Position numbers and translations under genes: made by a program
Part shown: positions 1,716 through 14,264 of the stretch, in pieces
Numbering within the stretch: the first letter of the stretch is position 1
Layout of the letters: each line of letters begins with the position of its first letter
Source: Heliorestis convoluta
GTDB taxonomy: Bacteria; Bacillota; Desulfitobacteriia; Heliobacteriales; Heliobacteriaceae
NCBI RefSeq assembly: GCF_009649955.1
Contig: NZ_CP045875.1
Span: 1,097,501-1,161,500, forward strand
Reading direction: 5' to 3'
DNA length: 64,000 nt
The notes under the pieces: model-generated
What the model was told of the DNA's origin: nothing
Databases searched by the model: none
The model's input: the letters and a program-made list of their open reading frames with translations, nothing else

Positions 1716-1744
1716 CAAAAAGAAAGCCGGGAACACTCCCGGTC
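1716..1744 (-). terminator. Rho-independent terminator of the B12 operon
   Basis: The minus strand carries the stem CCGGGA / TCCCGG with loop GTGT, followed by a T-rich tract (TTTCTTTTT). It lies about 65 bp after the stop of the P-loop gene and before DUF4321, so it probably ends the 8983-1810 operon. Confidence 0.75.
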
Positions 1745-1809: not shown

Positions 1810-2883
1810 TTAAAAACCAATTGTTTTCCTCCAAAGATAGAGAGGACCTTTCCTTTTTACATCCAAAACGGGAAGGGGCAGTTTATAAAGTGGTGATTCC
1901 AACACCCCTGTTGGTAAATATCGAGAACGGTATAATTGAGCGCCTCGATCATATTCTGGGTAGAAGGGATTGACCGTTATCGCGATCAAAGGAATTTTTT
2001 TGCGGACTTGTGCTTTTAACCTTCTTTCTCCTAGCATTCGCAATAAGGCACCTACATTTTTGGGGTCGTCACTTAGTAAAAGACTAACAGGATCTCGAAA
2101 AAGCAGGGACCAGCCTTTCATTTGAGTCGCTGCTTTTTCAAGAAACTTTTCCAGCGCTCTTAGAGTGACAAAGCCTGGTAAATTAACATAGCCTCGACTA
2201 TTTTCTCGCAAAGAAGGCGCTAGCATTTCTGCTAAATCTTGTCCATCTTCTGCCGTAATGAGTACATTTTGGGCTATGTTTTTTTCATGCCACTGGTTGT
2301 CGTGCCAATAGGCAAAGCCAAGCTGGTCATTTGGCCTATGAAAAGTTGTTGCTGTCAGGCGAAAAATGGCTGAAATAGCCGTCGTTTCTGTTGCCAATTG
2401 TGCAGGTTCTACATGACGGGCCGCCCCTGTTGCCAGAATAAGACCATCTGTCTCAACCATCGGCGCCATTCGATTGAGCGCGCCATCAACAAATACTAAC
2501 TGGGGCTTATATTTTTGCAAACTTTTTTTTATTTTAGCAAGTTCATGGGATTTATTAGGACCTGCAATAACAACCCTTCCTGCAGATTCTACTTGACCAA
2601 TGACAATCGATCCAAGGGCTGTTGCAATGGAAGTGTCTTCTAAAATGCGAATATCGGCAGAAGATAAGGGAAGGCATTTTCTTGCCGTTGCTACAACAGT
2701 GCCCTCTTCCAACCATAGTCGCGGTTTGGGTAGACCTGTGACATTATCAAGCTCTTCTCCGTCAAAGCCAATTGATGTAATGGCCATTCGACGCTTTCGT
2801 CGATAGCCTTCTTTGAGCAAAGCAGCTGTTGTTGTTGTCTTACCTGTATTTTTTGCTGTACCCGCTATACCGATGACTTTCAT
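1810..2883 (-). CDS. P-loop NTPase resembling aminomutase reactivase KamB
   Basis: A 357-residue protein with an N-terminal Walker A motif GTAKNTGKTTTT (residues 8-19) and a likely Walker B-like LVFVDGA near residue 130. Its start overlaps the stop of the upstream B12-binding gene by 4 bp (ATGA), which implies translational coupling. B12 enzymes of the lysine/ornithine aminomutase group need an ATP-driven reactivase (KamB/KamC) to exchange damaged cofactor, and the size, motif and placement fit a KamB-like role. No KamC/MutS-like partner is seen in the window. Function is inferred from similarity by eye and from context; a general cofactor or metal chaperone is the main alternative. Confidence 0.6.
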   Translation of the reverse strand: MKVIGIAGTAKNTGKTTTTAALLKEGYRRKRRMAITSIGFDGEELDNVTGLPKPRLWLEEGTVVATARKCLPLSSADIRILEDTSIATALGSIVIGQVESAGRVVIAGPNKSHELAKIKKSLQKYKPQLVFVDGALNRMAPMVETDGLILATGAARHVEPAQLATETTAISAIFRLTATTFHRPNDQLGFAYWHDNQWHEKNIAQNVLITAEDGQDLAEMLAPSLRENSRGYVNLPGFVTLRALEKFLEKAATQMKGWSLLFRDPVSLLLSDDPKNVGALLRMLGERRLKAQVRKKIPLIAITVNPFYPEYDRGAQLYRSRYLPTGVLESPLYKLPLPVLDVKRKGPLYLWRKTIGF

Positions 2884-4715
2884 TCTTTTGTAATCGTATC
2901 CCGTCCGCCTCGACCTGGATAAGCACCTTCTTCTTTACTGCCCAACAGACCTCCGTAAAGCGCATCGACGAAGGAAGGCGCAGCTGCTACTTCTTGCAGA
3001 ACTTTCTCTATCTTCTCGACGATTTCTTCAGACCATTTGGAAGCTTTTGCTGTTGCTTCTACAGAGCCTTCTCCAAAAAAGCGAAATCCTTCCTGAACTG
3101 CTTTTAAGGTATCGATACGAGAAGCAGCTACAATGGGACCACCGGAGTAAGCTTCATCGGACGAAGCAATTGAGATTGCGTCTACGCGAAGGGAAGCAGC
3201 TAAAGCCGCATGGAGCGACGTTGTCATAGAAGATTGAACCCGATCTTCCGTTTGCGTTAAAAAGCCAATTGGAGCCCCTGGCCAGATAGGTGCGTCTACA
3301 ATTGAACGAAGCGCCTCTATTTTAGCCGCATTAAAGTCAATATAATTGTGTTCCATCTGCCCGCTGATCATGACTTCAGGACTATAACAGAAAAGGGGTT
3401 GAAGAATGGGCCTTCCTCCAAGCTTGCGACCTAGTGCAGCTACGATTAACATACCTGCAAAAGCTTTATGAGCGGGCACACCGGCGAGCTCTTCATTTGT
3501 TACCACATCAAAAGGCAAGTTATACTTTGTAGCCATCTTAATTGATTCTACACCATCTACGGTCAGACGAGCTGGATCAGTCCCAGCAGCTAAAGAACCA
3601 TAGGCAATATTAATTTTTGTTAAATGAGCACCTAACTTACCAGCTAAAACAACAGTCTCAGGTGTATTCAAGCCGCGATGGGCTCGCACTTGCCAGAGTG
3701 TATATTCTTCCAAACCAGCCTTTGTCCAAGAAAGATTTTCCGGTGTAATCACAGATCCATCTTCCTGATGTGTTAGAAAATCACCGATAAAACCTTCTGT
3801 ACGGGCTCCCCAGGAGGGATCAAAGTGAACGACACCATCAGCACCCCAAGCTTCAGACAATTTAATATGAGCAATGTCCATAAAAGGGCAACCTGTGCCA
3901 TACTGAACAAAAACTTTTGGTTGTCCTGCTTCCCAATGCTGTACTTTTGCTGGTTCCATACGGCTTTTTGTCGCTGTTAGATAAGCTTCTAATCGTTCGA
4001 TCTCTTCTGGTCGTAACTTTCTTGTCTTGGGGTGGACTTCGCCACTTCGATAATAGGCTTCTGCTACTGGATCACATAAAGCGGCGTAGGCTTCGGTGAA
4101 TTCTTTGTTAATTTTTCCCTGTCGCCATTCTTCTAGATCCCAAGCGCTATCTCTTAAGCGACCTCTCTTTATTGCAGGAGATGTTTTTCCTTGCACCCAT
4201 TCTAAAATTCCATCGGTGATCTGATCGAGCAACCGTCCAATGCCAGCATGGCGAAATTCATAAGTATAGTTGGCTGTCAGATCGGCTCTTTCTTTTTTTA
4301 CTTTGTTTTGATCGGGCAGGTATGGACGTCCTTCTACATAGGCAACGACTTCTTCTACCGAGGTTCCAGGTCCAAAGCCAGCATCATAACCCAATTCTGC
4401 AGCCAACTCTGGTCTTATCGCCATGCCACCAATAACAAGGCCCATTTTATCTCGCAACCCTGCTGCATCAGCAAGATCGGCAAATCGAGCTAACAATTCA
4501 GCCACACCATAGCCAAGAGTACGGCTAATCAAAACCTGATCAGGTTGTTCTTTGCTCATGGCTGAAATAATTTCTTCCGGCGGTAGATCGGGTGGCAAAA
4601 GCATTGTCTTATGCCCAGCTTTATCGAGACCTCTACGAATCATTTTGAGTCCAATATCATGAACGGGATCGAGCGGTACCAGTAATATTTTGCGTCGCTC
4701 CAAGCAGGTTACCAC
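2880..4715 (-). CDS. B12-binding aminomutase/mutase-like protein
   Basis: The 611-residue protein begins with a cobalamin-binding Rossmann-type domain. Near residues 14-22 it has LDPVHDIGL, the place of the usual DxHxxG motif, but the residue two before His is Pro and the Asp is displaced by one. From about residue 265 it continues into a TIM-barrel-like domain (VFVQYGTGCPFMDIAHIKL, then SSDEAYSGGPIVAASR near 535) that recalls glutamate mutase and the ornithine aminomutase large subunit OraE. In OraE, however, the B12 domain is C-terminal. Start GTG at 4715 follows GAGGGG. It sits in an operon with PLP, RidA and FAD proteins. Substrate unknown; a B12-dependent carbon-skeleton or amino-group migration is the inference. 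Confidence 0.65.
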   Translation of the reverse strand: MVTCLERRKILLVPLDPVHDIGLKMIRRGLDKAGHKTMLLPPDLPPEEIISAMSKEQPDQVLISRTLGYGVAELLARFADLADAAGLRDKMGLVIGGMAIRPELAAELGYDAGFGPGTSVEEVVAYVEGRPYLPDQNKVKKERADLTANYTYEFRHAGIGRLLDQITDGILEWVQGKTSPAIKRGRLRDSAWDLEEWRQGKINKEFTEAYAALCDPVAEAYYRSGEVHPKTRKLRPEEIERLEAYLTATKSRMEPAKVQHWEAGQPKVFVQYGTGCPFMDIAHIKLSEAWGADGVVHFDPSWGARTEGFIGDFLTHQEDGSVITPENLSWTKAGLEEYTLWQVRAHRGLNTPETVVLAGKLGAHLTKINIAYGSLAAGTDPARLTVDGVESIKMATKYNLPFDVVTNEELAGVPAHKAFAGMLIVAALGRKLGGRPILQPLFCYSPEVMISGQMEHNYIDFNAAKIEALRSIVDAPIWPGAPIGFLTQTEDRVQSSMTTSLHAALAASLRVDAISIASSDEAYSGGPIVAASRIDTLKAVQEGFRFFGEGSVEATAKASKWSEEIVEKIEKVLQEVAAAPSFVDALYGGLLGSKEEGAYPGRGGRDTITKE

Positions 4716-4728
4716 TGGACGAATCCCC

Positions 4729-4971
4729 TCACTTTTCCATATGATCAGAGGTTACCCAAGCATAATTGTCACCGGGCCGATAAATATATGCTCTTACTCT
4801 TACCCTTGCACCAGGTCCAGCATATTGAATAAAAACAATATCTACGTCTTGAAAGCCCAAAGAGCGCATCAATCGAATGGCCCGATCTTTTCCTTCATTC
4901 TCGCTAGCACAGACCAAGAAAGTTTCTACATCGAGTGCATCCATTACATGAGACAGCATCGCTTCTGTCAA
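4729..4971 (-). CDS. Small protein of the B12 operon, unknown
   Basis: An 80-residue protein starting with TTG at 4971, eight bases after a strong AGGAGG. It has no signal peptide or membrane segment. It contains a mixed alpha/beta pattern (AIRLMRSLGFQDVDIVFIQYAG followed by beta-like VRVRAYIY). The gap to the following B12-binding gene is only 13 bp, so the two are probably made together. Aminomutases of the OraE/KamE type have a small partner subunit, and this could play that part, but I recognise no family and the similarity is positional only. Confidence 0.6.
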   Translation of the reverse strand: MTEAMLSHVMDALDVETFLVCASENEGKDRAIRLMRSLGFQDVDIVFIQYAGPGARVRVRAYIYRPGDNYAWVTSDHMEK

Positions 4972-4973
4972 AG

Positions 4974-5105
4974 CTATTTCCTCCTTTGATCGTCCTCAAC
5001 AGGCTGGGAGAAGTAAAGCTGCTGTCTGAGTCGATGACCGATACGATACCCTGAAGGTTCTTTGCGATTTAGCCCATAAAGCCAGCTCCAGTATCCGATG
5101 ACCAC
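4974..5105 (-). CDS. Possible 43-residue protein, unknown
   Basis: A short open frame from GTG at 5105 to TAG at 4976-4974. An AGGAGG lies immediately upstream, though with only about two bases of spacing, which is short. The predicted peptide is rich in aromatic and basic residues (IGYWSWLYGLNRKEPSGYR). Its last codons contain the AGGAGG used by the next gene, so the two would be translationally coupled. I recognise no family. The alternative is that this stretch is a leader or spacer RNA. Confidence 0.35.
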   Translation of the reverse strand: MVIGYWSWLYGLNRKEPSGYRIGHRLRQQLYFSQPVEDDQRRK

Positions 5106-5130
5106 CGCCTCCTTTTACAACCGATTTATA

Positions 5131-5170
5131 GGAAAGCAAGGGCCAGGCTTTCCCGGACCTTGCTTTTTTT
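5131..5170 (+). terminator. GC-rich hairpin with T-tract on the plus strand
   Basis: AAAGCAAGG and CCTTGCTTTTTTT form a long imperfect stem around a GC-rich interior, ending in seven T on the plus strand. The surrounding genes are on the minus strand, where the hairpin falls inside the B12 operon between the FAD gene and the small ORFs. It may stop antisense transcription or act as an RNA-processing or partial attenuation site. Confidence 0.45.
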
Positions 5171-5199
5171 GAAAAACGGTTGTTCATTCACCAGTCTTG

Positions 5200-6489
5200 C
5201 TAAGACAATGGTTGGGCGAATACGCCAGCAAGACCTGCCGCATCAACCTTTTGTTTTATCACATTGACGTCACTTGTATAAAGATTTTGCTCCTTCATAC
5301 GTTGGAAGTACACGGATCCAGAGAAGGTGTATTTTTTCGTTAATCCATCTTCTGTTGTCATTTGATCTTTCACATGGGCAATCGCATCGCCCACAGCAAG
5401 AGATCGAGGCAATTCTAGTAAGTCTTTGTTTACAGCGGCTCTTACGGCGTTGTGCCCCGCCAGTGTTCCTGTAACAACAGCTTCTGTGTGACCTACGAGT
5501 AAGCCCGCTTTTTCGCCTGCACAGAAGAGATTGTCCACATCACCCTGTACTTTTAGAGTATTATCACGAGGGCACATACCTAGATAACGTACCGAGTTGC
5601 CAATGCCGCCAGAGTAGGGATCTTCGAAGCGAGCATCTTCAAAGCCTGGTACTTGCCGCAGTTTATCAAGAGGATAAAAAGGGCTCATCAATTTGGCGTG
5701 ACCTGTATCAAGTAATATTACGTTGTCAGCAAATTCTTTTAGGGCATATTGCTGGCAAGCTTTCTGTGATAAAGAATCGGATTTTCGCAGTTGCTCCGGA
5801 ATCGGTACTACTGCCACACCCGTCCGATCCATTTCTTCGATAATATCAGGACGAATGGAATCTTTATGAAGCTTACAAGAACCAGACATAGCTCCTAAAG
5901 AACCGTCAGCCTTGCGACCAATGATTTCTTTTACGCCTGCTTTCGCGGCAATAGAAACACGACCGCCGAAGGTTGGGCAGCGATAGATACACATAGCGCA
6001 GCCATTGCCGTATTTGGTACAGTTTCCTTGAGGACCTGCTGTTCCCGATGCATCGACAAAGACATCGCCTTGGATTACATCGGTTTCATCTACTACAACA
6101 GCCGTAATTCGCGAGCCTTCCATTTGAATATCTTTCACTCTTGCTTCTGTACGAAATTGAATCTTTCCGTACTGGGCCATGCGGTTTTTAACGGCAGGCT
6201 CAACTTTTGCTACATCATAGAGGCTGGCATGTTTGTGACCGGGAAATTCCACGTTTTTATGGCGTGAAACTTCATCGGTTACTTCAAAGAGATCGCCTCC
6301 GCCCAAAGCGAGGAGCTCTTCTGTTGCCGTAAAGCGACCGTTATTACGCATAATGCCGCCGACGAGACCCGTACCTAAGAACATATCTGTTCTCTCTAAT
6401 AGCACTACATCAGCGCCTGCTTTGGCGGCAGAGATGGCTGCGGCACAACCAGCCCAGCCACCACCTACGACTACGACTTTAGGCATCAT
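5200..6489 (-). CDS. FAD-dependent oxidoreductase
   Basis: A 429-residue flavoprotein with an N-terminal dinucleotide-binding motif VVVGGGWAGCAAA (residues 5-17), an acidic VLLERTD end of the second strand, and a late FAD-contacting segment (DNLFCAGEKAGLLVGHTEAV, about 310-330) typical of GidA/succinate-dehydrogenase-like flavoproteins. A Cys-rich stretch GNGCAMCIYRCPTFGGR (about 162-178) could be redox active or bind a metal. It starts 15 bp after the PLP enzyme gene with GGGGGG-TGT before ATG. The operon context suggests oxidation of an amino-acid-derived intermediate, but substrate and electron acceptor are unknown. Confidence 0.75.
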   Translation of the reverse strand: MMPKVVVVGGGWAGCAAAISAAKAGADVVLLERTDMFLGTGLVGGIMRNNGRFTATEELLALGGGDLFEVTDEVSRHKNVEFPGHKHASLYDVAKVEPAVKNRMAQYGKIQFRTEARVKDIQMEGSRITAVVVDETDVIQGDVFVDASGTAGPQGNCTKYGNGCAMCIYRCPTFGGRVSIAAKAGVKEIIGRKADGSLGAMSGSCKLHKDSIRPDIIEEMDRTGVAVVPIPEQLRKSDSLSQKACQQYALKEFADNVILLDTGHAKLMSPFYPLDKLRQVPGFEDARFEDPYSGGIGNSVRYLGMCPRDNTLKVQGDVDNLFCAGEKAGLLVGHTEAVVTGTLAGHNAVRAAVNKDLLELPRSLAVGDAIAHVKDQMTTEDGLTKKYTFSGSVYFQRMKEQNLYTSDVNVIKQKVDAAGLAGVFAQPLS

Positions 6490-6503
6490 ACACCCCCCTT
6501 TTA

Positions 6504-7967
6504 TTACAGCATTCCAGCGTGACGACCAACAATTTCCATTAATTGAACCAATGCTCTTACAGCATAGCGCATATTCGGCTCGATTAACTGACCATGTTCA
6601 TCCGTCGTTCCGAGACCTGGAGAGATATAAATATTAGCATCATAAGCAATTGTAGGAATGACACCCATTTGAGCAAGACCTGTCTGTAAAATATTACTGC
6701 CAGCATACATATCTTCAATGGCGAAGACAGGGAAGCCAATGCCGTTGTTTTTCCAAGTACCTTCATAGTTAACTTCCACAGCTTGGGAGTTGTAGCTCTT
6801 GGTAATGATAATGCCTTGACGAATCTTGGGATTGAGTTTTTCGAACTCTTCTTTTACGATTCGCTCTAGATCATCCACTGGCTTGGTGAGCACTTCCGGA
6901 TTATCTCGAAGTACGCGCAGTGCTTGAACCTGGCTGAGCAGTGCTTCTTTCCCTGGATCGAAAGTAACATAAGCCGCTTTACCGTAAGATGCTGTCGTTC
7001 CCCAACGATCGCCTTGCATACCCATGGCGCGTCGAATTGTGACCATAAGATCTTCTCTACCAATAACAAGGCCAGAAGTGGCTGCGCCAGCTGCTTTATC
7101 CATGGCGTAAACGATCAGATCTGCATTGGCTTTGCGAGGATCGGTCCCAACAAAGGGAATTCCCCAAGCGTTGTCGACCAGGTAAGGCACATTGTATTCA
7201 TGGGCAAGCTCACCCATACGCTTCATTAAAATAGGTGTACCATCATCATCTTTGGCCCCATAGCCATAACCTGGTGTATCGTAACCAATTGAAGTAAAGC
7301 CAGTGAGATAGGCAGCGTGGACTTCTGCAGCCAGTGCCATTTGTTCAATGGAGCTTTCTGGATCAACTTCTGTTAACAATGGTACGGGATGAGCTTTAAT
7401 GCCATGAACAGGGTACTTTGCACCAGCAAGAGGTACAATGACGCTATCTAAGTTGTTCTGACGTTTGCCATAGAAACCGAGTTCACCAGCCGTAGTACCA
7501 CGATCGGCATAGAGATCTTTATACTTTGGCGGGAAAGGTCGACCATAGGCGGCCTGGTGATGCATATGCTTTTCATAAGGCGCAATGTAGCGAGCACGAT
7601 AGTTTTCACCACGACCAAGGTTCGGCGGTGTCATTAAGGTATCAAAGCAAAGCCAAAGAGCTGCTTCGCAAGTGCTCGTAGGTGCTACATCCCACTCATC
7701 ACCATAAACGTCTTTGACAATTTCACGAAGCTCATCTACGAGCTTAGCCAACGGGATTACTTCTTTACCACCACGCTCTGTCGCTTCAGCCACGTCTTTA
7801 CGAAGCGGCGCAGGGCACCCTGAAATGGCACCTGTTAAGCCGAACTTACCACGCAATTCTGGTGGGATTCCAATTTCATCAGCGCTTTTTTTGGCATCGG
7901 CATAAATCTGGGGAATGGAAGCTTGAAGATGTCGATAAAGCTGAAATTTATACTTGGCGTTCGCCAT
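6504..7967 (-). CDS. Fold-type-I PLP-dependent enzyme, unknown reaction
   Basis: The start at 7967 (MANAKYKFQL) follows GAGGAGG with six A; a TTG at 7982 is less likely because it overlaps that site. The 487-residue protein has the pattern VDNAWGIPF (Asp that would contact the pyridine nitrogen) followed by YAMDKAAGAATSGLVIG, where Lys would form the Schiff base, similar to the DK motif of SelA/SepSecS-like enzymes. It is most like the aspartate aminotransferase superfamily. It is followed by an FAD oxidoreductase and preceded by a RidA gene, a combination expected when a PLP enzyme yields reactive enamines. The reaction is not known to me. Confidence 0.7.
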   Translation of the reverse strand: MANAKYKFQLYRHLQASIPQIYADAKKSADEIGIPPELRGKFGLTGAISGCPAPLRKDVAEATERGGKEVIPLAKLVDELREIVKDVYGDEWDVAPTSTCEAALWLCFDTLMTPPNLGRGENYRARYIAPYEKHMHHQAAYGRPFPPKYKDLYADRGTTAGELGFYGKRQNNLDSVIVPLAGAKYPVHGIKAHPVPLLTEVDPESSIEQMALAAEVHAAYLTGFTSIGYDTPGYGYGAKDDDGTPILMKRMGELAHEYNVPYLVDNAWGIPFVGTDPRKANADLIVYAMDKAAGAATSGLVIGREDLMVTIRRAMGMQGDRWGTTASYGKAAYVTFDPGKEALLSQVQALRVLRDNPEVLTKPVDDLERIVKEEFEKLNPKIRQGIIITKSYNSQAVEVNYEGTWKNNGIGFPVFAIEDMYAGSNILQTGLAQMGVIPTIAYDANIYISPGLGTTDEHGQLIEPNMRYAVRALVQLMEIVGRHAGML

Positions 7968-7997
7968 TTTTTTCCTCCTCAAAGGGAAATTATTGAT

Positions 7998-8459
7998 TTA
8001 GGAACTTACTTGTACAATCATTTCTACTTCTACAGCCGCATCGAGTGGGAGCTCATTGACACCTACGGCTGAGCGGGCATGTTGGCCTTTTGTTCCAAAA
8101 ACTTGACCCAAAAGCTCAGAGGCGCCATTGATTACACCAGGCTGCCCTTGAAAACCTGGGCCACTGTTTACAAAGCCAACGACTTTAACAATTTGTTTGA
8201 CCTGATTGAGATCGCCCACTTGTCCTTTGATCACGCTTAAACAATTGAGGCAACAAATTTTTGCCGCTTCATAAGCATCTTCCGGTGTTAGATCCTTACC
8301 TACTTTTCCCTTGTATTTAAGTTCACCGTTGACAAAGGGAATCTGCCCCGATGTATAGATATAATCACCAACTCGTAAAGCAGGTACATAAGCAGCGACT
8401 GGCTTGGGTGCTTCTGGGACTGTAAGACCCATTTCTTGTAATTTTGTTTCTACAGACAA
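7998..8459 (-). CDS. RidA/YjgF family protein
   Basis: TTG at 8459 is chosen as start because AGGAGG lies eight bases upstream; GTG at 8468 would overlap that site. The 153-residue protein has the RidA core pattern, including GDYIYTSGQIPFVNG (about residues 32-46) and a late ARSAVGVNELPLDAAVEVE. RidA proteins are cytoplasmic trimers that hydrolyse enamine/imine intermediates released by PLP enzymes. The usual catalytic Arg is plausibly the one in HARSAVG. Placement directly upstream of a PLP enzyme supports a clearance or catalytic role for that enzyme's product. Confidence 0.88.
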   Translation of the reverse strand: MSVETKLQEMGLTVPEAPKPVAAYVPALRVGDYIYTSGQIPFVNGELKYKGKVGKDLTPEDAYEAAKICCLNCLSVIKGQVGDLNQVKQIVKVVGFVNSGPGFQGQPGVINGASELLGQVFGTKGQHARSAVGVNELPLDAAVEVEMIVQVSS

Positions 8460-8539
8460 GGGTTTCACCTCCTAGTTTTTGTCCTTAACAAAAGACAAGA
8501 GTAGTTTCACCGTACCTAAGAAAAAGATGTACACCTTTT

Positions 8540-8983
8540 TTAACGATCAGGACTTTTAATCAGCAACTGTTGACCAATCTCAGCACCTTGTTGGATACCA
8601 GTAAGCCGCTCTTTCGAGTAAATCACCATATTGATGTGATTGGGCATATGGGTCTCATCAAAGCCAGCAATATAACCAAGATGCTTTCCTTTCAGGTACA
8701 CTGGATCGCCTGTAACAACCACGCCTGGTCCTTTTACTTCAAAAAAAGCAAGGTAGGCAATGCGATTCACGATCTTTCCCGGTCCTGCTTCCTCTTCGTC
8801 CGTTATTATTATTTCATGAATTTCATTGACAGCCAGAGCTCGAGAAATAGGCTTGATCAGTTGTAAGCCTCGTTGTTCCAGTCGACCATCCAAAATAGCT
8901 ACGAGCTCACCAACGACATCTTTCTTTTTCGCGTAAGGGTGCACTTTTAGCATGCCTTTAGAGTAAGGATCGGATACAGTCAT
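8540..8983 (-). CDS. Conserved unknown protein heading the B12 operon
   Basis: A 147-residue soluble protein with no signal or membrane segment; ATG at 8983 follows AAGGGGGG. The sequence is beta-rich in the middle (AYLAFFEVKGPGVVVTGDPVYLKG). I believe it belongs to a small family of unknown function (possibly DUF6917) but cannot confirm it. It is the first gene of the run toward RidA, the PLP enzyme and the B12 protein, so it is likely part of the same pathway. No catalytic motif stands out. Confidence 0.65.
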   Translation of the reverse strand: MTVSDPYSKGMLKVHPYAKKKDVVGELVAILDGRLEQRGLQLIKPISRALAVNEIHEIIITDEEEAGPGKIVNRIAYLAFFEVKGPGVVVTGDPVYLKGKHLGYIAGFDETHMPNHINMVIYSKERLTGIQQGAEIGQQLLIKSPDR

Positions 8984-9065
8984 GTTTTCCCCCCTTTCTC
9001 TTTTGCCCTTAGTTTCTCTACTTTAAGACCTTTTTAATGATTAATGATAATTCCAAAAAATAGAA

Positions 9066-9100
9066 AAAGAAGCCCGAAATACCATTTCAAGGCTTCTTTT
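9066..9100 (-). terminator. Terminator after rex
   Basis: On the minus strand GAAGCC and GGCTTC form a stem around an A+T-rich loop and are followed by TTTTTCTATTTTTT. It separates rex from the B12 operon downstream. Confidence 0.75.
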
Positions 9101-9130
9101 CTTCATCTTATGGATTGGATAGCTATGTAC

Positions 9131-9766
9131 TTACTTTTTCTGCTTACTCGCAATATTAAATGTAAGTACTTCTAAATTAACAGCAAGATCCACATTTCGT
9201 AACTCAATATGATAGGGCACTGTAAGCACACAGGGTGCAAAGTTTAATATTGCTTTAACACCTGCTTGTACAAAAATATCAGTAACTTTCTGAGCTTCCG
9301 AAGCAGGCGTTGTTATAATACCGATGTCTACATTGTTTTCTTTGATCACCTTTTCAAGTTGTTCAAAAGGACTTACAGCAATTCCTTCATAGACTTTGCC
9401 TACTTTATTGGGATCAACATCAAATAGAGCGACCATGTCAAACTTACGATCTCTAAAACCTCGGTACATAGCCAAAGCAGCACCTAAGTGTCCGACTCCT
9501 ACAAGTACGACCTTCCATTTCTCATCTAATCCTAAAATTTTCAAGATGTGCTTATGCAATTCTTTTACATTGTAACCAACACCCCGAGTACCGAACTCGC
9601 CAAAATAAGCAAGGTCTTTGCGCACGTGTGCTGGACTAACACCAGAACCTTCCGCAATTTCTCCCGATGATATAAGTTCAAGACCTTGTACTTCTACCTG
9701 ACTTAAAAAACGTGAATAGACGGAAAGTCTAGCAATGGTAGCTTCAGGTATCTTGTAAGATTTCAA
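9131..9766 (-). CDS. rex: Redox-sensing transcriptional repressor Rex
   Basis: A 211-residue protein with an N-terminal winged-helix domain (VSPAHVRKDLAYFGEFGTRGVGY, about residues 42-64) and a C-terminal Rossmann domain with GVGHLGAAL (about 90-98) for NADH/NAD+. Rex represses fermentation and respiration genes and releases DNA when NADH rises. TTG at 9766 is the apparent start, preceded by GAGGGGGAG. It is followed by its own terminator, so control of the neighbouring B12 operon by Rex would have to be through a promoter site. I saw no convincing Rex operator. Confidence 0.95.
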   Translation of the reverse strand: MKSYKIPEATIARLSVYSRFLSQVEVQGLELISSGEIAEGSGVSPAHVRKDLAYFGEFGTRGVGYNVKELHKHILKILGLDEKWKVVLVGVGHLGAALAMYRGFRDRKFDMVALFDVDPNKVGKVYEGIAVSPFEQLEKVIKENNVDIGIITTPASEAQKVTDIFVQAGVKAILNFAPCVLTVPYHIELRNVDLAVNLEVLTFNIASKQKK

Positions 9767-9943
9767 TGGCTCCCCCTCTTTTCATAAAGGTAAATCGATA
9801 ATTATTTTGCACATTGCAATCACAATTCTTTTGTTACCTGGCTCCTAAAGGAAAAAGAAGAATAGATCGTGCGTAGAAACTTACTCTTTCTATTATAAAC
9901 GTAAAAAAGAAGATGGTGAAGACCAATTTGTTATTGAAAAATC

Positions 9944-11281
9944 TTATAAATCTTTATGATTGGTCAATTCTTTTCGAGCTTCTGCAATCATATAAAGTGA
10001 ACCCGTTACAACAACGATGGCTTTCATCCCTTTATCTTCATACTTTTCTACTGCTTGTTGACCTGCTTGTAAAGCATCCTGAATGCATGCAATCATTTGC
10101 AAGGGTTTGCCATAAGGACTGGCTACCTCTTCTACGCTTTTCCAGTCTCCAGCTCTTGTATGGTTTACCTGCGTGATGATGATTTCGTCAACTTCTGGTG
10201 CTAGTAAAGCAACAATTTTCTCTCGGGCTTTGTCGGCTAAAAGAGCAAGAATTAAAATCTTTTTGATGCCTTTGTACTCTTCTTGAAGCGTTCGTGCGAG
10301 GGAAGAGGCACCTCCTTCATTATGAGCACCATCTAAAAGTATTTTTCCGATCTTTTCTTGTCTTCCTGGCCAGGTTGTCTTTTCTAAGGCACGAGAAAGT
10401 TGCTTTTCCGTCCATTCATACCCTTGTTCCTTCGCTACTTCTAGAGCAGCAATGGCTGTCGCCAGATTTTGTTGTTGATGATGACCTTGTAGCGGTACTT
10501 TAAGGGGGCCGTACGATTGCAGGCGCCCCTCCACCATCACTTTTTTCTGGTCCCTTACTCCATCCCATTGCACCCACTGGGCAGTGGCCATCTTCGGGCC
10601 ATGCCGCACCACTTGTACAACTGGTGCGGACTTGGCTTTGGCTCTTTCTTGTATAACCGTAAGGACCAGTGGATCTTCACTGGCTGTTACCACAGGCACT
10701 GCCTCTTTGATGATGCCTGCTTTCACTTGTGCGATTTCTTCCACCGTCGTACCCAGGTAGTCCATATGATCAAGCGTTACATTTGTAATGACCGACAATA
10801 GGGGCGTAATTACGTTGGTCGAATCAATGGCACCGCCCATACCAACTTCAAGAACAACAATATCTACTTCTTCTCTTGTAAAGTAGAGAAAAGAAAGGGC
10901 TGTCCATACCTCAAACTCTGTAGGATGATCATAACCTTCTGCTACCATGCTTTCAATAGGACCTTTTAAGAGGCCAATCAGATGGGCGACTTGATCTTTT
11001 AAGATTGCTGTCCCATTGATCTGTGTTCTTTCGGTATAGCAATGAAGGTGTGGTGATGTAAAAAGACCTACGCGATAGCCTGCTTCTTCTAGTACTTTTG
11101 CAATTATGACAGCCGTAGAGCCTTTGCCGTTGGTACCACCAATATGAATAAATTGAGGCTTTTTTCTCTGTTGAGGCTGACCAAGACGATGTAATAGTTC
11201 TTGAATGCGCCCTAAGCCTGGGTTAATGCCGAATTTGGTCAGATCTTGTAAATAATGCAAAGCCTCTTCGTAAGTCATCAT
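9944..11281 (-). CDS. folC: Bifunctional folylpolyglutamate/dihydrofolate synthase
   Basis: A 445-residue Mur-ligase-type enzyme that adds glutamates to folates. The P-loop HIGGTNGKGSTAVI is at about residues 46-59. The central region carries VLEVGMGGAIDSTN and TNVTLDHMDYLG, both family hallmarks, and the C-terminal domain has ILLDGAHNEGG. The ATG at 11281 overlaps the valS stop by 4 bp (valS-folC), a very common pairing in Bacillota that implies coupled translation under the valS T-box. Length is normal. Confidence 0.95.
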   Translation of the reverse strand: MMTYEEALHYLQDLTKFGINPGLGRIQELLHRLGQPQQRKKPQFIHIGGTNGKGSTAVIIAKVLEEAGYRVGLFTSPHLHCYTERTQINGTAILKDQVAHLIGLLKGPIESMVAEGYDHPTEFEVWTALSFLYFTREEVDIVVLEVGMGGAIDSTNVITPLLSVITNVTLDHMDYLGTTVEEIAQVKAGIIKEAVPVVTASEDPLVLTVIQERAKAKSAPVVQVVRHGPKMATAQWVQWDGVRDQKKVMVEGRLQSYGPLKVPLQGHHQQQNLATAIAALEVAKEQGYEWTEKQLSRALEKTTWPGRQEKIGKILLDGAHNEGGASSLARTLQEEYKGIKKILILALLADKAREKIVALLAPEVDEIIITQVNHTRAGDWKSVEEVASPYGKPLQMIACIQDALQAGQQAVEKYEDKGMKAIVVVTGSLYMIAEARKELTNHKDL

Positions 11282-13984: not shown

Positions 13985-14220
13985 AAAAAGAGCACCCCCA
14001 TCCCAAAGGACGGAGTGCTCCGCGGTACCACCTTTGTTCCATTGTTTACGTAGAGAGCTCTGAAAGAAAGTGAGCCCAAACAATGGCACTTGAGGGATGA
14101 TAACGGTTCCCAGCCGGCTATGGTAAAGCACTCTAAGGCGACTTCCACCGATTTACCCAGCAACCTTTCAGCCAAGGGCTGCCTCTCTAAAGGGCGAAGG
14201 CGGTGTACTCCTCCTTATCA
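13985..14220 (-). promoter_or_regulatory. T-box leader of valS (valine specifier)
   Basis: On the minus strand the leader has the AGAGAGG distal-loop motif followed by GCTGAAAGG. A valine codon GTC at 14142-14140, inside GGAAGTCGCC, is in the expected specifier position. The T-box sequence AAAGGTGGTACCGCGG lies near 14034-14019. A terminator stem (GAGCACTCCGTCC with GGATGGGGGTGCTC) and a T-rich run end at about 13985. Uncharged tRNA-Val would stabilise the antiterminator and allow valS-folC expression. Confidence 0.93.
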
Positions 14221-14264
14221 TCGAATTATCCTATGCTTGTCCTACAAAATATCTGCTCTTTACT

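Follow-up and report, generated by a model that had tools for sequence, protein, structure and literature searches.

Is pyridoxal phosphate (PLP) indispensable to the radical chemistry of the aminomutases that use both vitamin B12 and PLP? Few reactions of adenosylcobalamin (AdoCbl) radical mutases are known, and a branch of these aminomutases without PLP would offer a direct test of whether the chemistry of the fold needs that cofactor and of how the enzymes evolved. The question is raised by an operon that runs from 8983 to 1810 on the minus strand of a 64,000-nucleotide stretch of the Heliorestis convoluta genome (this whole stretch is hereafter called the window). We lean towards reading the operon as a catabolic module, conserved across genomes, whose centre is a third branch of the lysine 5,6-/ornithine 4,5-aminomutase superfamily, one that does not depend on PLP. 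An earlier note on this DNA had listed eight open reading frames (ORFs) between these positions; all eight were found where it placed them, on the minus strand and tightly packed, and conservation in other genomes marks seven of them as genes:

8540..8983, minus strand: DUF6917 protein, 147 aa (Pfam PF21891, 152.5 bits, cut-off 27)
7998..8459, minus strand: RidA-type imine/enamine deaminase (PF14588, 84.6 bits, and PF01042, 62.6 bits, both over cut-off)
6504..7967, minus strand: fold-type-I PLP enzyme, 487 aa from the ATG at 7967 (AlphaFold2 (AF2) model, PDB matches, invariant Lys and Asp)
5200..6489, minus strand: flavin adenine dinucleotide (FAD) oxidoreductase of the GidA/FAD_oxidored type (Pfam PF01134, 125.7 bits)
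4729..4971, minus strand: s80, a stand-alone OAM_dimer-like domain, 80 aa (PF16554, hhalign to KamE, gene adjacency)
2880..4715, minus strand: 611-aa protein, B12 Rossmann domain plus aminomutase-type triosephosphate isomerase (TIM) barrel (Pfam B12-binding, AF2, hhalign)
1810..2883, minus strand: KamB-like P-loop ATPase (NCBIfam NF052386, 216.6 bits, cut-off 210)

The eighth, a 63-aa ORF (5187..4996), is not conserved and was rejected as a gene, as even Heliorestis acidaminivorans, the closest named relative, whose 611-aa protein is 90% identical, lacks a homologue of it. The domain calls of the note agree with Pfam and NCBIfam, which give DUF6917, RidA, a weak class-V aminotransferase match, GidA/FAD_oxidored, B12-binding and a KamB-like P-loop. 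The operon had also been called undescribed, and keyword searches of the literature, with subscription papers outside their reach, gave no description of it.

The 611-aa protein had been proposed as a relative of the B12 aminomutases with its B12 domain at the N-terminus, and structure match and profile comparison bear out both points. The AF2 model, built with 32 relatives, has a predicted local distance difference test score (pLDDT) of 83.6, and its best match in the PDB is the alpha subunit of lysine 5,6-aminomutase (1xrs_A; Foldseek E 1.3e-16, template modelling score 0.62 by target), followed by ornithine aminomutase and then glutamate mutase. In hhalign, the barrel scores 51.2 against KamD over about 400 columns; column-shuffled profiles give 17.8 (standard deviation 2.9), with a maximum of 24.7. 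The N-terminal domain matches the KamE profile with 99% probability (E 2e-19) and the Pfam B12-binding family with 51.3 bits, and its B12 motif, LDPVHD[IV]G, is present in nearly all family sequences reaching that region. Judged from profiles and model, the 611-aa protein thus belongs, as a distant member, to the lysine 5,6-/ornithine 4,5-aminomutase superfamily, and the same comparisons show a predicted KamE-type B12 Rossmann domain fused ahead of a KamD-type TIM barrel. In phmmer searches, KamD and OraE find each other (E 1.5e-35), but the 611-aa protein is out of reach of KamD in this way, which argues that its family is the deeper branch. The families of the KamD/OraE barrel (PF09043), OAM_dimer and GlmE (PF06368) give no match in the H. 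convoluta genome.

The small protein s80 would supply the remaining domain. Of the 23 members of its family, 16 have PF16554 (OAM_dimer) as their top match (best E 9.6e-4, below cut-off), and the hhalign score against the N-terminal region of KamE is 37.0, compared with 14.2 (standard deviation 2.7, maximum 21.2) for shuffled columns. A profile search of the PDB with s80 and DUF6917 returned nothing significant. By its profile matches, s80 is an aminomutase dimerisation domain encoded as its own gene, and hence the predicted small subunit of the B12 enzyme. The earlier note had seen two very small proteins here: the 80-aa one is real and corresponds to this defined domain; for the other, the frame had been misread.

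The module therefore invites comparison with D-lysine/beta-lysine 5,6-aminomutase (KamD + KamE), with which it shares the KamD-type barrel, the KamE-type B12 Rossmann domain, OAM_dimer and a KamB-type ATPase. In the known enzyme, however, KamE holds the dimer and B12 domains and KamD the barrel, whereas the domains of the module are, by alignment, re-partitioned: the dimer domain is a protein of its own, and the B12 domain precedes the barrel in one fused protein. The module also lacks the PLP-lysine loop and the PLP-phosphate segment, and its B12 motif, DPVHDxG, is one residue off DxHxxG. D-ornithine 4,5-aminomutase (OraS + OraE) belongs to the same superfamily, with a small and a large subunit and an alignable B12 domain, but OraE carries a PF09043 barrel, OAM_dimer, a C-terminal B12 domain and Lys629 for PLP; in the module, the B12 domain leads and that lysine is missing.

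The P-loop protein had been described as reactivase-like, which its similarity to KamB supports. Against NF052386 (KamB) it scores 216.6 bits; relatives reach 197, 204, 221 and 254, on either side of the cut-off of 210, and a KamB beside kamD reaches 313. It is 37% identical to true KamB over the first 157 residues. These similarities show a homologue, at the level of sequence, of the aminomutase reactivase subunit, which is probably itself a reactivase. The cut-off of NF052386 runs through the subfamily, and some members are automatically named lysine 5,6-aminomutase reactivase KamB in genomes without lysine aminomutase.

Glutamate mutase (GlmE + GlmS) is also a mutase without PLP and combines a TIM barrel with a B12 Rossmann domain, and the 611-aa protein might be a carbon-skeleton mutase of that kind, with the PLP enzyme, FAD enzyme and RidA processing the branched product. 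In the structure search, glutamate mutase ranks directly behind the aminomutases; the invariant Arg344 and Arg347 could bind carboxylates; GlmE is absent from the heliobacterial genomes searched; and the FCD-type regulator, together with TAXI-TRAP-like transport genes next to three loci (read from protein starts), would fit a dicarboxylate. However, the structural match is weaker, and the hhalign score of GlmE against the 611-aa family (16.0) is at noise level and GlmE undetectable by profile, whereas KamD is clear. The operon has no GlmL-type reactivase, and GlmE and the module are both present in many genomes. We judge a carbon-skeleton mutase to be unlikely.

The 611-aa family also differs from its relatives at the place where PLP would sit. 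The PLP contacts of lysine 5,6-aminomutase are Lys144 of KamE and Arg184, Gly187, Gln188, Ser189, Tyr236, Ser238, Tyr263, Arg268 and Asn299 of KamD (PMC3958899). For mapping, the KamD of genome G325 was used; it aligns without gaps to chain A of 1xrs and has the PLP-contact residues at identical numbers. In the profile alignment, the loop with the Schiff-base lysine (Lys144 in KamE, Lys629 in OraE) is deleted from the 611-aa family, and the phosphate-binding segment Gly187-Ser189 also lies within a deletion. Arg184 is replaced by an invariant Asp299, Ser238 by an invariant Arg347, Tyr236 by Ala, and Arg268 by Ala or Gly; Asn299 of KamD is unaligned and has no counterpart. The stacking Tyr263 is the sole PLP contact kept, as Tyr372 in all 32 sequences. 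These deletions and replacements point to the loss of built-in PLP from the family.

A true PLP- and B12-dependent aminomutase with a relocated PLP site and a new amino-acid substrate would be a counter-proposal, with, for example, Lys367 binding the cofactor and Arg347 facing the pyridine nitrogen. Fold and domains are as in the aminomutases, the stacking tyrosine is kept throughout and the barrel Lys367 is invariant, all of which would suit it; against these stand the deleted lysine loop and phosphate-binding segment and the replaced Arg184 and Arg268. We consider such a relocation quite unlikely.

A presence survey of 398 genomes, sampled across the phylum, covered DUF6917, the 611-aa catalytic domain and the PLP enzyme. 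Of these, the catalytic domain is found in 38 genomes and DUF6917 in 39; they occur together in 38 (hypergeometric P ~2e-52, with genome relatedness ignored). Strong PLP-enzyme matches are present in the same 38 genomes and in two others, G004 and G432, the latter a fragmented assembly with DUF6917 and PLP pieces at contig ends. Co-occurrence of the set, which the earlier note had named as a check, is thus borne out: all 38 genomes with the catalytic domain also have DUF6917 and the PLP enzyme.

A scan of species genomes gave 35 loci with 611-aa relatives (55-90% identical) in heliobacteria, Tepidanaerobacter, Thermosediminibacter, Fervidicola, Thermovorax, Halobacteroidaceae and others. The earlier note had taken neighbourhood in other genomes as decisive for its idea, and the neighbourhood is conserved in these loci, with the repeated order DUF6917-RidA-PLP-FAD-s80-B12/TIM-KamB. 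Their flanks hold s80 in 34, PLP in 31, KamB in 30, DUF6917 in 25, FAD in 23 and RidA in 20, counts that are affected by several loci ending at contig ends. The s80 gene directly adjoins the 611-aa gene in 34 of the 35, and in four loci s80, 611 and PLP stand directly together with the rest absent. A further complete set is present in H. convoluta itself (G000), where it is divided between two loci: regulator-DUF6917-PLP-FAD-permease (L068 7872-13664; G000 1567276-1569184) and RidA-s80-611-KamB (L056 7429-11120; G000 1843786-1845588).

Among the partners, the PLP enzyme is a separate fold-type-I protein, as the note had it. Its AF2 model (pLDDT 81.7) finds SepCysS, SelA and Cap15 as best PDB matches, and Lys296 (the PLP lysine) and Asp270 (the pyridine-nitrogen Asp; ORF numbering) are conserved in all module-linked copies aligned. 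It shares fold type I and local similarity around the PLP lysine with SepCysS, SelA and D-glucosaminate-6-phosphate ammonia-lyase, but at about 490 aa and 11-14% identity it forms its own family. The heliobacterial relative G004 lacks both DUF6917 and the 611-aa domain. Its PLP homologue, next to maf (L069 9051-10565), has the catalytic lysine deleted and Asp270 changed to Asn, and is probably a decayed remnant. A paralogue without the catalytic lysine is found in G331 (L073 9351-10751), beside RidA and a Na/Ca-exchanger-like gene, and in G308 PLP, RidA and DUF6917 paralogues lie together with the B12 gene absent. It is very improbable that the B12 protein and the PLP, FAD and RidA proteins serve separate tasks as merely co-inherited neighbours: the paralogues without a B12 gene in G308 and G331 and the loci without FAD or RidA would allow it, but co-occurrence across the phylum is near-perfect at different chromosomal sites, four loci are reduced to s80-611-PLP, both halves are duplicated in H. 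convoluta, and the PLP remnant of G004 has decayed in a relative without the B12 gene.

The FAD enzyme carries the cysteines C157-x6-C164-x2-C167-x3-C171 in every complete copy, which agrees with the Cys-rich loop noticed earlier, and also C205, C245 and C323; the CX6CX2CX3C motif is probably an iron-sulfur (Fe-S) site. In a subset of genomes, a PRK05802-type NAD/FAD/2Fe-2S electron-transfer protein and a second FAD paralogue lie beside the FAD gene. The PRK05802-type gene was rejected as a core part, being linked in that subset only and having no full-length match in the H. convoluta genome. The DUF6917 protein has the invariant residues H56 E57 ... G92 D93 ... D109 x T H112 x P N H116, possibly a metal or active site. 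In Thermosediminibacter litoriperuensis, DUF6917 and RidA form one 302-aa ORF (L052 5149-6057) with an internal Shine-Dalgarno sequence and ATG. A 303-aa frame is found at the DUF6917 match of G302 as well.

Returning to the PLP-independent aminomutase branch, co-occurrence in 38 of 38 genomes, the neighbourhood of 35 loci, the duplicated set, the decayed remnant in G004, the single reading frame of DUF6917 and RidA in T. litoriperuensis and the lack of KamD, OAM_dimer and GlmE families in H. convoluta all support it, next to the structure and profile matches and the altered PLP site. Because a B12 radical enzyme of aminomutase descent would have lost its B6 site, the module probably serves an undescribed amino-acid pathway. 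We propose more tentatively, at not quite even chances, a new AdoCbl radical enzyme class: an aminomutase fold without built-in PLP that rearranges or deaminates an amino acid and forms, with its partners, an undescribed pathway in phototrophic and fermentative Firmicutes. AdoCbl would be bound by the N-terminal domain with His19 as ligand. The substrate would be an amino acid with a carboxylate, held by new invariant residues (Asp299, Arg344, His346, Arg347 and Glu409), and homolysis of the cofactor would set off a radical 1,2-shift or a deamination of this substrate. The KamB-like ATPase would swap damaged cofactor in an ATP-driven reactivation. The FAD/Fe-S enzyme may then oxidise an amine or a C-H bond, giving an imine or enamine that RidA would hydrolyse, and the PLP enzyme and DUF6917 could carry out a further cleavage or deamination, so that the whole module would act in amino-acid catabolism.

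Clostridial lysine and ornithine fermentation follow a logic of mutase, dehydrogenase and cleavage, and the proposed order of mutase, oxidation and cleavage would resemble it by analogy. Ethanolamine ammonia-lyase, EutBC, is a precedent for an AdoCbl-dependent 1,2-amino shift without PLP; its likeness to the module is one of chemistry and by analogy only.

Several observations weigh against this interpretation. The KamD and KamE profile matches are far under family cut-offs, with identity of about 15%; the 611-aa protein does not reach the NCBIfam equivalog cut-offs (KamE 53.9 versus 280 bits; OraE 38.1 versus 800 bits). The KamB-like scores straddle their cut-off, from 197 to 254 bits, and the search of heliobacteria for a KamC-specific homologue gave only partial matches in the MutS range; lysine 5,6-aminomutase differs in having this partner. 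The claim of PLP loss depends on one distant profile alignment, the model loops near 301-303 and 483-491 are of low confidence, and PLP could be held otherwise, for example by an invariant barrel Lys. FAD or RidA is absent from some loci, and these two may therefore be optional or supplied elsewhere. There is a fair chance that the module represents a new class of enzyme, and the main idea of the earlier note holds in corrected form. For DUF6917 and two proteins without an assigned role, a PLP enzyme and a permease, the module gives a candidate role in roughly 10% of the genomes sampled from the phylum.

Outside heliobacteria, the module holds an FCD/helix-turn-helix regulator and often a permease, for whose family a Pfam scan gave nothing significant. 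A Na/Ca-exchanger-like protein adjoins 12 of the compared loci. Acyl-CoA synthetase-like and CoA-transferase-like genes (read from protein starts) lie near the module in L051. The most divergent 611-aa relative is that of L132 (G078; 4614-10280), where the starts of neighbouring proteins resemble 2-oxoacid:ferredoxin oxidoreductase and tungsten aldehyde oxidoreductase subunits; L132 is possibly a different branch of the pathway.

Three further features accompany the genes of the operon:

5133..5166, minus strand: hairpin that separates the FAD gene from the small ORFs (full arms and conservation by eye)
4974..5105, minus strand: 43-aa ORF with GTG start (tblastn, third-position bias)
1727..1742, minus strand: terminator-like stem followed by a T-rich tail, 3' of the operon

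The 43-aa ORF (5105..4974) starts behind AAAGGAGG, in another frame of the stretch that holds the rejected 63-aa ORF. It was found by tblastn in the two Heliorestis genomes only, is 79% identical in H. acidaminivorans, and differs there at 14 third codon positions versus 7 and 5 at the others. The hairpin, AAAGCAAGG...CCTTGCTTT, is kept in H. acidaminivorans and has no T-run directly behind it; an attenuator, a processing site and a weak terminator are candidate roles. As for gene boundaries, the KamB-like gene overlaps the 611-aa gene by 4 bases, the likely start of the PLP gene is the ATG at 7967 with a good Shine-Dalgarno ahead (read from the sequence), and RidA probably starts at the TTG at 8459, also with a good Shine-Dalgarno, inside an ORF call that reaches 8468.

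Just upstream lies rex, which looks like a separate unit because a terminator-like hairpin (read by eye) separates it from the DUF6917 gene. An operator search did not point to Rex control (7 matches versus 5.9 expected). The genes rex, DUF4321 and maf were rejected as module members; outside heliobacteria the module lies in other gene neighbourhoods.

It had been suggested that a B12 riboswitch or an amino-acid transporter in related loci would be informative. On the second part, there is the conserved permease without a Pfam match; on the first, neither the window nor 23 related loci have a B12 or amino-acid riboswitch attached to the module that could hint at the substrate, the single cobalamin riboswitch among the related loci lying in L054, 4 kb beyond the module. 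The sole Rfam match in the window is a T-box leader (14003-14230, minus strand, 103.6 bits), which overlaps the 5' end of a long valyl-tRNA synthetase-like ORF.

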